A stretch of DNA of 64,000 bases from Alteromonadaceae bacterium Bs31 (GTDB lineage Bacteria; Pseudomonadota; Gammaproteobacteria; Pseudomonadales; Cellvibrionaceae), in the NCBI GenBank assembly GCA_900177435.1, contig FXAI01000012.1:62001-126000 (forward strand), read 5' to 3'. Made by a program: the position numbers and the translations under genes. The notes below the pieces were generated by a model, which saw nothing but the letters and a program-made list of their open reading frames with translations, ran no database searches and was not told the origin of the DNA. The stretch's first letter is position 1, and each line of letters begins with the position of its first letter. Positions 3,754 to 36,024 of the stretch are shown here, in pieces.

Positions 3754-5427
3754 ATGCCGGAGTCCGCTTCGCCCCTTGATGTAGGATTAATCGTTACGGG
3801 TCTATTGGGGGGGCTAGCGCTGTTTTTATACGGCATGCGCAAGATGACGGACGCCCTTAAAGCTGTAGCGGGAGACGGCTTGAGAAACCTGCTCTCCAAG
3901 CTAACCCGCAATAGGTTCTCTGCCGCCCTGGCTGGCACAATTATTACCGGTATCGTGCAATCCTCTTCTGTAACCACTGTGCTGCTGGTTGGCTTTATTT
4001 CCGCTGGCTTACTTAATTTCAGCCAGTCCATTGGCGTAATTATTGGTGCCAATATCGGTACCACGATTACGGCCCAGATCATTGCCTTCAAGGTGTACAA
4101 ATATGGCCTGGTGATGGTCGCTGCAGGTTTTTTTATAGAGGTACTGTCACGTAATGAGCGCCTTAAACACTGGGGCGTGGCGTTAATGGGCCTTGGCTTG
4201 ATCTTTTTCGGCATGGAAATGATGAGCAGTTCAACCAGCCCCTTACGTCAATGGCAGCCGTTCATTCAAACCATGCAGAGCCTGTCAAACCCGCTAGCCG
4301 GGGTGTTAATGGGCCTGGCCTTTACCGCCATTGTACAAAGCTCTTCGGCAACAACCGGTATTGTGATTGTGCTGGCCAGCCAAGGCATGATTAGCCTCGA
4401 ATCAGGCATTGCTTTACTGTTTGGTGCAAATGTAGGCACCTGCGTAACTGCGAGCATCTCCGCTATTGGTCGGCCAAGGGATGCAGTGCTTGCGGCTTGG
4501 GTTCATGTGATATTCAATTTGGGGGGAGTATTACTGTGGGTCTTTTTCATTCCCCAGTTCGCCGATCTGGTTCGGCAGTTTTCCCCGGTTTCGTCGCAGC
4601 TTTCTGCGGCAGAACAAATCGCCAAAGACACGCCCCGGCAAATTGCCAATGCGCATACTCTATTTAATATCGCCAATGCACTTTTATTTATAGGCTTTAC
4701 CAAGACACTGGCAAAACTGGTGGAAAAAATTGTTCCGCAAAAGGAGAAGGCGCTTACAAAACACAAGCCCGTAACCCTCTATCTGGATGACATTTATTTA
4801 GACCAGCCCTCACTGGCCCTGGATATTGTTCGACGCGAGCTGGTACGCATGGCGCAAGGTGCGCGCGGCACACTTTCGCGGGCATTTCGAGTGGTTACTG
4901 AAGGCGGCGACAGGCAAGTGGCAAAACTGGGCACCGAGGATAAATACATGGACGCGATTCATGGAGAAATTGTTCGCTTCCTGGGCAAGCTCTCTCAAAA
5001 AAACATCAGCAAAAAGGAGTCGGATACGCTTGCTGATTATATTTCTGTTGCAAACGACTTGGAGAGCATCGCCGATGTCGTGCAGGATAATCTTTTACAT
5101 AGCGCCAGAAAACGACTAAGACTACACGTTAAAATTAGCCCCATTACGCTCAAAACACTTAAACCCATCTACAAAAAAACTGTTGATACCTACGAGCAAA
5201 TGCTGGAAGCATTAGAAAGCGGTAACAAAGAGCACGCAAATGCAGCCGCAAAAAGTAAAAACGGGCTGCTGCAACTAACAGACGAAGCCACCTCTCACCT
5301 AATTAACCGCTTGGTTGCTAACGAACCAAACCGTGTGGAGGCTTTTCAGATTGAATCGGACATTATTGAGCACTTAAAGCGAATAAACACGCTTACCAGA
5401 AGAATTGCTCGCTGCTTTGTGAAATAG
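3754..5427 (+). CDS. Na+/phosphate cotransporter family protein (NptA/YjbB type) with PhoU-like tail
   Basis: Inner-membrane sodium-coupled phosphate transporter, 557 residues. The hydrophobic N-terminal part (about 10-330) carries the two inverted Na/Pi repeats, each with a QSSS motif (QSSSVTTVLL near residue 70 and QSSSATTGIV near 195). The cytoplasmic part (about 350-550) is helical and PhoU-like, the arrangement of E. coli YjbB. No Pho box is evident and no phosphate genes adjoin it; it stands alone between the GH5 gene and the convergent efflux operon. The family is linked to phosphate homeostasis, often export in bacteria; direction here is unknown. Confidence 0.9.
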   Translation: MPESASPLDVGLIVTGLLGGLALFLYGMRKMTDALKAVAGDGLRNLLSKLTRNRFSAALAGTIITGIVQSSSVTTVLLVGFISAGLLNFSQSIGVIIGANIGTTITAQIIAFKVYKYGLVMVAAGFFIEVLSRNERLKHWGVALMGLGLIFFGMEMMSSSTSPLRQWQPFIQTMQSLSNPLAGVLMGLAFTAIVQSSSATTGIVIVLASQGMISLESGIALLFGANVGTCVTASISAIGRPRDAVLAAWVHVIFNLGGVLLWVFFIPQFADLVRQFSPVSSQLSAAEQIAKDTPRQIANAHTLFNIANALLFIGFTKTLAKLVEKIVPQKEKALTKHKPVTLYLDDIYLDQPSLALDIVRRELVRMAQGARGTLSRAFRVVTEGGDRQVAKLGTEDKYMDAIHGEIVRFLGKLSQKNISKKESDTLADYISVANDLESIADVVQDNLLHSARKRLRLHVKISPITLKTLKPIYKKTVDTYEQMLEALESGNKEHANAAAKSKNGLLQLTDEATSHLINRLVANEPNRVEAFQIESDIIEHLKRINTLTRRIARCFVK

Positions 5428-5526
5428 ACGCCGCTCTTTTAATCAGCCGGCGAGCAAGCTACCGGTTTCACCTGCTACATTTACCGGCCTCTGTAATACC
5501 ATAAGACATGCTTTAACGGACCAGGC

Positions 5527-8500
5527 TTACTCTTTTACGTGATAAAAAAGTGCAAACAAAACGGGCACAACAATTAAGGTAAGCACCGTACCAAAACCCA
5601 GCCCGGCCATAATCGCAACCGCCATTGGCTTAAAAAACACATCGGCAAGCAGGGGGATCATCCCCAGTATTGTCGTCAGTGCCGCCATTGTTACCGGACG
5701 CAACCTGCTTACTGCCGCATCGCTAATAGCGCGGTGCCAGGCATAGCCCTCTTCTTCATTAAGGCGTTTTATTTCCTCCACCAATACGATGCCATTTTTA
5801 ATTTGCATTCCAATCAGGCTCAGCACCGCCAGTAAAGCGGTAAAACTGAAGGGCGCCCCCGAAAGCAAGAGGCCGTAGGCCACACCAACAATAGCAAGTG
5901 GTACCGTTAGCCAAATTACCAGTGTTTGTTTTACTGAGCTGAACATAAGCACGGTAATTATAATCATTACTAAAACACCCAGAGGCACGAAGGCAAATAC
6001 CGCCTTGTTGGCTTTTTGCTGTGCTTCGTACTCACCGCCCCACTCCAAACTATAACCTTGCGGTAAGGGAACGGCCTCTGCCTTAGCTCGGAGTTTTGCA
6101 AACAGTGCGAACGAGTTTGTTGTAGGTGCGGAATCTGCTAGCACGCTTAAGGTGCGCTTGCGGTTCATACGTTTTATTAACGGGTCTTCCCATACTAGCG
6201 TGTTTTCCAGCAGAAACTGACTGGCATCCACGTACTCCCTCAGTATTGGGCTGTATACGGGTATACGGCTTAGTTGCTCTATACCTTCCCTTTCATGAAT
6301 AGGTGGCCGCAATATAATGGGCAACATATCACTACCGTTGCGAAAGGTACCTACCTGCTCGCCAATGACATTCCGTTTTATTGCCGCATCCAGATCCGCT
6401 TTGCTAATACCCAGCCTGCGCGCTTCTGCCGCATCCAAAACCGGCTGTATCACTTTGGTTTTTTCCCGCCAGTCGTGACGCACGTTTATCGCGTCCGCTT
6501 CGCTTGCAAATAGATTGGTTAGCTGCGAGCCCAGCTCGCGAAGTACACCGGCATCTGGCCCTACAAGACGCGCTTCAATCTTTGCAGGGGTAGACGGGCC
6601 AACCGCCATTCTACGAAAGCGGGTAAAGGCCTGAGGGTAATTTTGTTTTATATTGGCTTCCACTTTTTCTATTGCAGGCTCCAGGCTTTTATAGTCTTTT
6701 GTCTGCACAATTAATTGCCCATAGCTGGAATAAGAGTTTTCCGGAGCATAGGTGAGCATAAAGCGCATTGCTCCAGCTCCAATGGTTGCTGTCACCTGCT
6801 CCACCTCTCCAAGCGCCAGCACCTCCTTCTCCAGGCTTTTAATATCGTGTTCCGTTGCATGAATACTGGAGCCTTCAGGTAACCAGTAGTCCACCATGAA
6901 TACGGGAAGTGCGCTATCCGGGAAAAAAGCCTGTTTCACATAGCCGAATGAAAATAGTGCCGATGCCAGTAATGCCAACATGACACTAATGGTAAGCCAG
7001 CGAAAATGCAGCATTACATGGAGCAGGGAGCGATAAGCACCGTAAGCTTTACCCTTGTATGGGTCTTCTTGCTCAGCGCCCTTTTCTTGCGGTTTATTTT
7101 TAAACATCAAAAAACAAAAGAACGGTGTTAGCGTTACCGCCAGCACCCAGCTTAATAGAAGCGAGATCAACAATACCCAAAACAAGCTACCGGTAAATTC
7201 ACCACTGGCATCTGGCGACAGACCAATGGGCGCAAAAGCGCTGATGGCGATTATTGTGGCCCCCAACAGCGGCCAACGTGTGTGAGAAACAATTTTTATC
7301 GCCGCCTCCAACTTGGAATAACCTCGCTGTATGCCGATGAGTATTCCTTCGGTAACAACAATGGCGTTATCCACCAGCATACCAAGCGCGATAATTAGAG
7401 CACCTAGGGAGATGCGATGCAGATCAATGTTAAAAAAACTCATTAAAATAAACGTACCAGAGATGGTAAGCAATAATACGCCGCTCATTATTATTCCTGG
7501 CCGCCATCCCATGGTGAACATCAACACCACTATCACTACCGCTATGGCCTGAACCAGGCCTTCCAGAAAATTGCTTACTGATTTTTCCACCTCTTGGGGC
7601 TGGTTGTAAATTGAATGTATTTCCATCCCCAGTGGTCGCTGGTACTCAAGTTGCTGCAAGCGCGCCTCTATATTTTCGCCCACCTCAACCACATTCACGC
7701 CTGAAGCAAAAGAGACCCCCAGGGTGAGGGCTTGCTTGCCATTTAATCGATATAAATGCTCGGGTGGGTCCTGAAAACCTGCGCTTAACTGCGCCACATC
7801 AGATAAATAAACCAGTTGCCCTTGCTGGCTGCCCACCAGAAGCCCCCCCAGAGCGTCCAGGCCATCCGCGCCGGAGAGCGTACTGGCAATTCGCAAATAC
7901 TCAGAGTCGATACGCATATGCCCTGCATCGTTAACCAGGCTTTGACTCTTTAATAATTGCCGAATAGCGTCGGAAGAAAACCCGGATGCGGCCAACTTCG
8001 CCCGATCAACTTCTATATACACTTGTTGCTGTCGTACACCACCAACATTTACTTTACCAACACCCTCTACCAGCACCAGCTCTCTGCGCAAGAGGTCTGC
8101 GTAATCCGATAATTCTTTGTAACTGAAGTCGTCACCGGTAACCCCGAGAAAAACACCGTATACATCACCGAAATCGTCCAGCACCATTGGCGGCTGGGCA
8201 CCCGAAGGCAGGTAAATTTTCAGGTCATTTATTTTTCGACGCAGCTCATCCCAGATCTGGGCAAGGTCGTTTTTACGATAGAAACTTTTCATCTCAACGG
8301 TTACTTGAGACAAACCGGAACTCGAAGTAGATGTTATTCGATACACATAGGGTAATTGTTGAATTGCATTTTCGATGGGCAGGGTAATTTCTTCCTCTAC
8401 CTCCAGAGCCGATGCACCCGGGTACCGAGTGACAACCAGCGCCTGCTTAATGCTGAATTCCGGGTCCTCCAGGCGCCCCAAACTATTGAAGGACAGTACT

Positions 8501-34118: not shown

Positions 34119-34318
34119 TCACATTGCTTGCTGTTGGTAGGTTCTGCAAGCCACATTCTTACGCTTAAACAACAAATAAAAAACCCTATGCTACTGTTGA
34201 GCGAGTCTGATCTAGCGGCACTGTGCAGTGACTGCGGAGTTTTCCTCTGCGGTTTATCTTGCTCCACCTGCGCTCAAACAAACTCTTAAATTTCTGCTCT
34301 GGTTCGCATACTCTGCCG

Positions 34319-34332
34319 TTGATTTCCATCAA
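34319..34332 (+). promoter_or_regulatory. Consensus FNR/Anr box upstream of the HemN-like gene
   Basis: TTGATTTCCATCAA fits the FNR consensus TTGAT-N4-ATCAA at all ten defined positions. Its centre (34325.5) is about 41.5 bases before base 34367, and TAGACT at 34354-34359 could be the -10 element. That is class II activator spacing, but the transcript would then start at or inside the first ATG (leaderless or using the second ATG). Alternatively TACAAT directly 3' of the box could be a -10, making the site repressive. Confidence 0.75.
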
Positions 34333-34365
34333 TACAATAATGAAAGCAACAACTAGACTTGCTCC

Positions 34366-35208
34366 ATGCAAATGAATGAATCTAAATCCAACATTGCCGA
34401 GCACCCAACCCTGTCACGCCTGCAAGGCAAAGTGACCGAGTTTGAGGTTATTCGCTTGCTGGAAAAATACCGCCATCACCCAACTCGGCCGATCAGTATC
34501 TCCATCGACTGCAACTCTTTCGCATGGGTAAACGAAGCAGACGGAATTAGCCCTCCAGGGCGCCTATTGAGCAAAGAGATTTCTCTATGGTCAGAAGCCG
34601 TTGGGCATCGAACTGTGGATACTCTACTGCTCTGCTTCCCTTTCCGGTATTTAAAACCTTACGAGCTCACCGAGGTAATGCATGCTCTCGCCTCTCGGTT
34701 TTCTTTGTCCGAAACCTCAGACCGTTGCCATCGAGTAGCCACACATATCGATGAGATTAACGGTGACCACGTCGCCCTGCTCAAAGGCCTGGGCTTCAAT
34801 CACTACCAAATTGTTCTCAGCAGAGATGACCTGGAGGACATCCAGAAGATCGAAGAAGTAACAAAGCTGATACGTCAGTACTCCTTCTCGGGCGTAGGGA
34901 TACAGATTCACGATGCGGATTGCCTGGATGACCTGAGAGAGCACGTAATCGATGTTAAGACCAAGGTTCAGCCGGACTACATCTACATAGGTTGTCTCCC
35001 CAAGCTACTTAATCGGGAAATGGTGGGCGGTGGCGCGATAATCTTTGACGGAGAATACGACCTGGAAGAAGACTGTATCAATATGGGCGTAGAGGGCACC
35101 AGCTACCTTCAGAGCCTTGTACTGCAGAATTTCTGCAATCCAGAGCGATACGTGAGCGCACTTGAGGCAGGCAAACTGCCAGTTAATCCGGGGCCTCTCA
35201 GTTTGTGA
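34366..35208 (+). CDS. HemN-like protein lacking the radical-SAM cysteines
   Basis: 280-residue protein that aligns by eye with oxygen-independent coproporphyrinogen III oxidase: RPISISID at the first strand, LLSKEISLWSEAVGHRTVDTLLL for the next helix-strand, ISLEVDPxE-type DRCHRVATHIDEINGDHVALLKGLGFNHYQIVLSRDD, and a late YDLEEDCINMGVEGTSYLQ like the HemN GMGVSAIS region. Where HemN has CxxxCxxC, this protein has DCNSFAWVNEADG: only C49 remains, out of position, so a radical-SAM [4Fe-4S] cluster should not form. It is also shorter than HemN (about 450). It sits directly before fnr, the place occupied by hemN in several gammaproteobacteria, behind an FNR box. Two possible starts, ATG 34366 and ATG 34372. 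Function unknown. Confidence 0.75.
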   Translation: MQMNESKSNIAEHPTLSRLQGKVTEFEVIRLLEKYRHHPTRPISISIDCNSFAWVNEADGISPPGRLLSKEISLWSEAVGHRTVDTLLLCFPFRYLKPYELTEVMHALASRFSLSETSDRCHRVATHIDEINGDHVALLKGLGFNHYQIVLSRDDLEDIQKIEEVTKLIRQYSFSGVGIQIHDADCLDDLREHVIDVKTKVQPDYIYIGCLPKLLNREMVGGGAIIFDGEYDLEEDCINMGVEGTSYLQSLVLQNFCNPERYVSALEAGKLPVNPGPLSL

Positions 35209-35280
35209 TGGGTTTTTAGCAGATTCAAACACGTTTTTTATATATACTACGGCCTTCCTGATTTAACCTTGGAACGCCCA

Positions 35281-36024
35281 ATGCCTCCGCAATCTATTGC
35301 TAACCATCAGTGCCACCATAACGCACAGGTAAACTGTGCAGATTGTCGCCTAGCCGCAATTTGCCTGCCTATCAGTCTTCATGTCGATGACATCAGCAAG
35401 CTGGATGAAATCATCCAACGTGGAAGACCTGTGCAGAAGTCTGATCATGTATACCATGCTGGAGAGCCTTTTCGCTCAGTTTATGCACTAAGATCTGGTG
35501 CCGTTAAGACAGTGAAAGTCACTCAGGACGGACAAGAACAGGTGACAGGCTTTTACCTACCGGGTGAAATCATTGGTATGGATGGCCTTGCCTCTAACCA
35601 CCACACCAATTCAGCAACAGCTTTGGAAACCTCGGCCGTATGCGAGATTCCTTTCTCTCGCCTGGAAGAACTCAGCACTCAGGTACCCAACTTGCAGCGA
35701 CGATTCTTCCAGTTAATGAGTAAAGAAATCACTCATGAGCAGCAGCTAATCACGCTTTTAAGTAAAAACAGCGCAGACGAGCGTATTGCCGCACTGCTGC
35801 TAAGTATTTCCACTCGCAACCACAACCGTGGGCTATCCGCCAAAGAATTCTATCTACCCATGTCTCGCTCAGATATCGGTAATTATCTTGGCCTTACCAT
35901 CGAAACGGTTAGCCGAGTGTTAAGCCGACTGCACAAACAGGAAGTCATTGCCCTGGACAAAAAGCACGTTGTAATCAGTGATATGGACGCGCTACAAAAT
36001 ATCGCCTCTGTATCCATCGACTAA
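35281..36024 (+). CDS. fnr: Fnr/Anr oxygen-sensing transcriptional regulator
   Basis: Crp/FNR-family activator with an oxygen-labile [4Fe-4S] cluster, controlling the anaerobic switch. From the ATG given (247 residues) the ligands are C19, C22, C28 and C121, in CADCRLAAIC and SAVCEIPF. The cyclic-nucleotide-like sensor domain (about 30-150) includes YALRSGAVKTVKVTQDGQEQ and GFYLPGEIIGMDGL; the C-terminal HTH shows DIGNYLGLTIETVSRVLSRL, whose ETVSR matches the FNR recognition helix reading TTGAT. A TTG start four codons earlier is possible. DUF4202 gene starts 10 bases after the stop. Confidence 0.96.
   Translation: MPPQSIANHQCHHNAQVNCADCRLAAICLPISLHVDDISKLDEIIQRGRPVQKSDHVYHAGEPFRSVYALRSGAVKTVKVTQDGQEQVTGFYLPGEIIGMDGLASNHHTNSATALETSAVCEIPFSRLEELSTQVPNLQRRFFQLMSKEITHEQQLITLLSKNSADERIAALLLSISTRNHNRGLSAKEFYLPMSRSDIGNYLGLTIETVSRVLSRLHKQEVIALDKKHVVISDMDALQNIASVSID

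Follow-up and report, generated by a model that had tools for sequence, protein, structure and literature searches.

A HemN-derived protein without the radical-SAM cluster, encoded beside fnr in Cellvibrionaceae: a probable FNR-activated pseudoenzyme

The window analysed here, i. e. the whole stretch of 64,000 nucleotides from Alteromonadaceae bacterium Bs31, carries directly 5' of fnr a gene for a descendant of the coproporphyrinogen oxidase HemN that has lost the catalytic motifs. This gene, here called pseudo-hemN (positions 34366 to 35208, plus strand), is an intact reading frame of 280 amino acids; its reality and its descent from HemN are borne out by profiles, the predicted fold, a tree and dN/dS. 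It comes from an hemN that was already linked to fnr, is under purifying selection and bears the signature of an FNR promoter; we infer that it is induced at low oxygen. We are rather confident that its product is a functional, FNR-controlled and non-catalytic protein. The fuller reading, an FNR-activated, HemN-derived pseudoenzyme that acts by binding, is the one we favour, with less assurance.

The neighbouring fnr (35269 to 36024, plus strand; NCBIfam PRK11161, E 2.3e-88) has the same orientation. The ORF finder placed its start at a TTG (35269); an in-frame ATG is also present at 35281. Further 3' follow a DUF4202 gene and a SirB-family gene.

Relatives and kinship with HemN

Among 144 genomes of the family, 31 gave matches at E<=1e-5, of which 18 have a short form (260-320 aa) and 13 an intermediate one (open frames of 412-488 aa). 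The carriers include Teredinibacter, Agaribacterium, Saccharophagus, Pseudoteredinibacter and Exilibacterium. By their coordinates all 31 copies adjoin fnr on the same strand; the view of a first-pass annotation of the window, that a former coproporphyrinogen oxidase has become cluster-free and kept its place, is supported. Every short form and 10 of the intermediates were also read gene by gene with their surroundings, and fnr was the next gene each time; the short, Cys-less form beside fnr is thus found in relatives as well. On the other side of pseudo-hemN the locus varies. The window has at 34119-34365 no counterpart of a gene of 277-290 aa which in seven other Teredinibacter genomes lies between a U32 peptidase gene and pseudo-hemN and which, at the one locus examined (L036), encodes an aldose 1-epimerase. 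At L045, from a more distant carrier, a SIR2-family gene lies in this place.

Taken alone, the window protein matched the HemN profile TIGR00538 only weakly (E 0.0083, 15 bits, residues 68-157) and did not reach its curated cut-off of 324.95 bits. No Pfam family matched it at E<=1, the radical SAM domain PF04055 and PF06969 included, and scans of genome contigs and viral contigs with the single sequence found no relatives. With an alignment as the query, the scan of the genome contigs gave 13 loci. The comparison of alignments by hhalign was clear: the 18 short forms matched four true HemNs with a probability of 98.9 (E 9.8e-18), the short forms matched the intermediates with E 4.7e-31 and the intermediates matched HemN with E 3.2e-41. 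Of the two families proposed for a profile search in the first-pass annotation, HemN is therefore recovered, weakly by the protein alone and clearly together with its relatives, and HemW is not.

The HemN barrel fold is present in the AlphaFold2 model of the window protein (pLDDT 84.0, pTM 0.83). Superposed by VIA-align, this model matched E. coli HemN (1olt) with Z 18.5 (3.6 A over 240 residues; next entry 10.3), and the model of an intermediate, L072 (pLDDT 78.0, pTM 0.80), did so with Z 34.4 (2.9 A over 385 residues; next entry 11.9). Foldseek gave E. coli HemN with E 6.7e-11 and E 5.3e-27, respectively. The earlier observation that the protein follows HemN strand by strand is upheld by these matches. 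Intermediates were present in the alignments used for folding, as were two HemN-like rows of full length (L076, L079), and the models may be biased towards HemN for this reason. The profile comparisons, by contrast, are independent of the models.

In a quick IQ-TREE tree with SH-aLRT support only (59 rows, among them 16 of the 18 short forms and nine intermediates), the 16 short forms make up one group (SH-aLRT 96), and short and intermediate forms together make up another (99). Both are nested in a larger set (45 rows) whose remaining members are fnr-linked HemNs; its SH-aLRT of 86 is under the 95 mark. The branches are very long (up to 3.7), and the exact attachment point of the clade is therefore unsure. 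Ten of the 11 distal HemNs form a separate group (98) together with two fnr-linked rows. The synteny agrees with the tree: the short and intermediate forms descend from fnr-linked HemN. A minor observation concerns L087 and L093 (genomes G020 and G028), whose fnr-adjacent HemNs cluster with the distal lineage, which suggests that the fnr-linked copy was replaced there.

Membership of the HemW or PsgB family was ruled out by profile search, as neither TIGR00539 nor TIGR04419 matched the window protein at E<=1. HemW and CgdH2 resemble it in being HemN relatives with a role other than that of an oxidase. They differ from it in that both keep the cluster motif, according to excerpts of PMC10320005, and the HNxxYW motif of the HemW type is absent from the sequence of the window protein. 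PsgB, by its family name a HemN-related non-iron pseudo-SAM protein, is likewise a relative of HemN without the iron site; in the window genome the two matches to TIGR04419 at E<=1 are at the HemW and HemN genes only, and the window protein would have arisen independently of PsgB. The existence of this NCBIfam family means that iron-free HemN-like proteins are already a known kind. In titles and abstract beginnings of the literature on radical SAM pseudoenzymes, pseudo-SAM HemN, Cys-less HemN-like proteins and cluster loss, we found nothing on the family described here, and none of the papers searched mentions Teredinibacter together with hemN.

Lost motifs and the series of forms beside fnr

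The window protein has the fold, the collinear sequence, the adjacency to fnr and the FNR promoter architecture in common with HemN, and differs from it in what is missing. The CxxxCxxC segment is deleted rather than mutated, C62, C66 and C69 being absent in 18 of 18 short forms; the three cluster cysteines are also absent in all nine aligned intermediates and in a tenth, L119. Since separate genomes agree, a sequencing error at the motif can be rejected, and the cluster-free form is not the outcome of local decay. The first-pass annotation was thus right that the cluster motif is gone, though DCNSFAWVNEADG, which it had read at the CxxxCxxC site, does not lie there. The Cys of DCN aligns just before the motif, in a column that holds G in eight and C in three of the 18 short forms; because of this position and variation it was discarded as a remnant cluster ligand. 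Also lost, and unmentioned in that annotation, is GGGTP: every one of the 18 short forms lacks G111 and has another residue for T114. At E145, Q172, R184 and D209, which we take to be SAM-site residues of HemN, the window protein has A125, S152, D155 and Q180. Among the short forms E145 and D209 are never kept (0/18 each, the latter being Q in 15), R184 is kept in one, and Q172 is replaced in at least 15.

Two larger parts are absent besides the cluster segment, one around E. coli residues 240-310 and the other at the C-terminus. The C-terminal domain (PF06969) is missing in the alignment and gives no match in the window protein; the canonical HemN of the same genome does match it. At 280 aa versus 467 aa for this HemN and 457 aa for 1olt, the early estimate of a protein about 170 residues short was about right. 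As far as the sequence can tell, radical-SAM chemistry is excluded, and the protein is predicted to be incapable of the oxidative decarboxylation of coproporphyrinogen III.

Read along the clade, the forms at this one fnr-linked place make up a series from intact hemN through intermediates without the cluster motif to short forms without the C-terminal domain. The intermediates (L053-L061, L072-L075, L077 and L078, from Pseudoteredinibacter, Exilibacterium and genus g15) share clade, place and lack of the cluster motif with the window protein. In contrast to it, they measure 404-485 aa, retain the HemN C-terminal region and are not predicted to be leaderless. Cluster segment and GGGTP are already lost in them; the short forms in addition lack the C-terminal region and the stretch near E. 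coli residues 240-310. The cluster site was accordingly lost first and the C-terminal domain later. To our knowledge, radical-SAM enzymes have seldom been shown to become non-catalytic proteins. Here place, promoter and ancestor are known and intermediates survive, which makes the order of the losses readable and the gain of a new role testable.

Elsewhere in the order the gene 5' of fnr is a true HemN. A search of 390 genomes of the order gave mainly frames of HemN length, and the best 30 loci all have a fnr-like gene (on the opposite strand in one, L157); CxxxCxxC is present in 29 of these 30, and GGGTP in 28 of the 29. The remaining one lacks both motifs. This is L140, the same protein as L079 (4620-6023), which is fnr-linked, full-length and from another family; its sister L148 is intact, and the motif loss in L079/L140 is independent of that in the short and intermediate clade. 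With 337 bits, L079 lies just above the cut-off of TIGR00538 and could therefore be named coproporphyrinogen oxidase by automatic annotation. L076 (HTCC2143, 4776-6146), likewise outside the clade, is an fnr-linked HemN that has kept CRHHCQTC and lost GGGTP; it scores just below the cut-off (323 bits) and may represent an early step of this erosion. In many sister genera fnr has no such neighbour: in 30 fnr neighbourhoods from 29 genomes neither a hemN-like gene nor a convincing remnant was found, the only signal being E 0.64 and 4.2 bits (L113). In one carrier, G164, pseudo-hemN is split over two frames (L112, 5217-5765, minus strand) which match the family separately; the draft assembly may be at fault here. 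Of the other copies examined, all 28 are open over their whole length, 18 of them short and 10 intermediate.

The FNR promoter

A perfect FNR box, TTGATTTCCATCAA (34319 to 34332, plus strand), is centred 40 bp 5' of the ATG of pseudo-hemN, a distance that is conserved in the Teredinibacter relatives. A predicted -10 element, TAGACT (34354 to 34359, plus strand), follows 21 bp after the box, and this spacing is that of a class II arrangement. Transcription would start at about 34366, i. e. at the ATG itself, and the mRNA would be leaderless.

In each of the 18 short forms a box scoring 8/10 or better is followed by TANNNT at a distance of 21-22 bp, in agreement with the FNR control suspected from the start. 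Twelve of these boxes are perfect, four score 9/10 and two 8/10; 0.026 perfect boxes are expected per 400 bp. In 17 of the 18 an in-frame ATG lies 33-35 bp after the box and 6-8 nt after the -10 element; for five of the short forms (L044, L047, L048, L051, L052) the ORF finder had set an earlier start, and the ATG after the promoter was adopted. The exception is L049, with its ATG 59 bp after the box. None of the nine intermediates has an in-frame start at 33-35 bp, hence none is predicted to be leaderless. The leaderless layout chiefly distinguishes the short clade, though such a start also occurs in a few other fnr-linked genes (L063, L064, L079, L148, L152 and, at a second box, L165). The window genome (5.0 Mb) contains four perfect boxes with a -10 element, the one at pseudo-hemN among them (reversed-pattern control: 0). 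With the ATG added, the pattern is found once in seven of the eight Teredinibacter genomes, always at pseudo-hemN (the box of G002 is 9/10), and once each in two of 11 other genomes (G009 and G038), at other places.

The same architecture is found at true hemN genes. In 32 of 43 upstream regions of fnr-linked hemN (L076 and L079/L140 included) a box of at least 8/10 is followed by a -10 element 20-23 bp later, and hemN is a core Anr target in Pseudomonas, according to excerpts of PMC6588701. Since fnr-linked true hemN has both this promoter and this position, neither feature speaks specifically for a new role. The genome's own distal hemN has no box above 8/10. Among 20 upstream regions of distal hemN, 10 have a box of at least 9/10, one of them perfect (L136, a further region, was not resolvable); the idea that pseudo-hemN alone is FNR-controlled was therefore rejected.

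These comparisons bear on the proposal that the product feeds back on the neighbouring oxygen sensor and thus closes an Fnr-activated loop, a possibility which the first-pass annotation had raised. It could draw on the adjacency of all 31 copies to fnr, on the FNR box 5' of the gene and on several genomes in which the pair is intact where the gene 3' of fnr varies. However, fnr-linked true hemN has both the place and the box, so that they are expected by descent and the adjacency is weak evidence for a regulation of Fnr; moreover, fnr persists without pseudo-hemN in many genera. We therefore regard a modulation of Fnr as possible and very improbable. Independently of this, TATACT is present 5' of fnr (35243-35248) and may point to an additional promoter for fnr itself, apart from the FNR box 5' of pseudo-hemN.

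Selection, conservation and possible function

The ratio dN/dS was determined by the Nei-Gojobori method in eight pairs, three of which were saturated (27 of 28 in the first set tried). It amounted to 0.022 (L040/L041) and 0.092 (L051/L052; dS 2.4, near saturation) in the short forms and to 0.057 (L073/L074), 0.072 (L073/L075) and 0.229 (L056/L057) in the intermediates. The neighbouring genes, set against the 0.022 of L040/L041, gave 0.004 (fnr), 0.021 (GuaA), 0.025 (U32 peptidase) and 0.053 (DUF4202). The closest short pair lies within this range, which indicates that the protein is maintained and not its place alone. Pseudo-hemN is thus under purifying selection, less strict than that on fnr. 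A frameshift pseudogene in the window genome was ruled out by the open frame and the selection. That the gene is no simple pseudogene, as had been argued from its intact frame, is supported by values of 0.02-0.23 in five unsaturated pairs.

The main rival explanation is a slower process, in which the fnr-linked copy has been eroding ever since a second HemN (and HemF) sufficed and is held for now only by weak constraint or by its position 5' of fnr. Canonical HemN is present elsewhere in 26 of the 31 carriers, and HemF in 19 of 20 genomes examined, the exception being 68% complete. The stepwise shrinkage, the long branches, the broken frame in G164, the absence of the gene beside fnr in many genera and the second, independent motif loss in L079/L140 also speak for decay, and the value of 0.23 in one intermediate pair counts against a function. 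Yet dN/dS was 0.022-0.092 in the four other pairs, the frames of the 28 other copies read are open, and 11 residues are invariant among 18 divergent short forms. Furthermore, the promoter is found in 18 of 18 short forms, whereas a box of at least 9/10 lies within 300 bp of fnr in only three of the 31 loci where the gene is absent or broken. We consider slow decay unlikely, though it has to be taken seriously.

The conservation of the 18 short forms was compared with that of 32 fnr-linked true HemNs, in zones defined by predicted secondary structure. In the beta-to-alpha loops of the catalytic face, mean conservation was 0.77 in true HemN and 0.44 in the short forms. The corresponding values were 0.65 and 0.58 for the alpha-to-beta loops, 0.64 and 0.57 for the helices, 0.85 and 0.57 for the strands, and 0.69 and 0.53 for the C-terminal sheet. 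Because the short forms have diverged further than the HemN set, a general drop is expected, and only the contrast between the two faces is informative. Of the invariant residues, E71, T102, L138, G141, F144, G241, Y262 and P272 are common to HemN; W75 is invariant in 18 of 18 short forms and not in HemN. This pattern fits a protein whose barrel has ceased to be an enzyme and is used for binding instead.

The ligand could be a tetrapyrrole. Having been an enzyme, the protein would then hold and deliver haem or porphyrin in the manner of HemW-type proteins and of Campylobacter CgdH2, as the first-pass annotation had also considered. The HemN ancestor handles coproporphyrinogen, and there is a precedent in CgdH2, which excerpts of PMC10320005 describe as a HemN-like protein without oxidase activity that binds haem and takes it from ferrochelatase. 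H106 and Y262 are well conserved in the short forms; their conservation is about the same in true HemN, however, and they need not be new haem ligands. The cluster motif, conserved in CgdH2 and HemW according to the same excerpts, is deleted here. In addition, conservation within the barrel is lowest in the substrate-side loops of the catalytic face, the C-terminal domain is absent, and HNxxYW is lacking. Carriage of haem or porphyrin thus seems improbable.

We return to the preferred reading, a pseudoenzyme that acts by binding. Selection and a strong low-oxygen switch have been retained despite the lost metal site, which probably means a new, non-catalytic job. In this model an fnr-linked coproporphyrinogen oxidase would have been reduced to a barrel without the [4Fe-4S] site, the SAM-binding loops and the C-terminal domain. 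Fnr would activate its gene at low oxygen through the class II promoter, and the transcript would probably be leaderless. The product, incapable of radical-SAM chemistry, would most likely bind another molecule, most plausibly a protein, and would do so with the helical, alpha-to-beta side of the barrel, which has stayed conserved while the catalytic face diverged. A haem-pathway enzyme or Fnr itself might be the first candidate partners. A protein-binding or scaffold mode is a reasonable, if tentative, proposal; the chances that it is right come close to even. Much bolder, and in our estimate rather unlikely as a whole, is the idea that in this clade of Cellvibrionaceae the fnr-linked oxidase evolved by stages into a new Fnr-activated regulator, made from a leaderless mRNA and exerting low-oxygen feedback on Fnr or haem supply, with intermediates surviving in related genera.

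A last candidate partner is the canonical HemN encoded elsewhere in the genome. In the window genome it lies on contig C30 (596.5 bits, 467 aa, normal CxxxCxxC); a second, weaker match to TIGR00538 on contig C27 (123 bits) was taken for HemW. A role as regulator or inactive partner of HemN, also proposed in the first-pass annotation, would suit the 26 carriers that have one, and allosteric regulation, scaffolding and competitive inhibition are modes described for pseudoenzymes (excerpts of PMC10211241). Nevertheless, no HemN over the cut-off was found in G059, G021, G147 and G149, drafts that are 97-99% complete, carry the gene and have HemF; it is unlikely that HemN was missed in all four. 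The fifth carrier without HemN, G024, is 68% complete and not informative. Partnership with HemN can therefore not be the general role, and we give this alternative very little weight. These four carriers also serve as a warning that a hemN-like gene beside fnr may not make haem. As a side observation, another of the four perfect FNR boxes with a -10 element in this genome is present 78 bp after the canonical hemN (G000:C30:220614-220654, corresponding to L065 6615-6655), and a 64-aa Cys-rich frame with CxxC pairs follows this site (L065 6767-6961). Possibly, it encodes an FNR-activated small protein.
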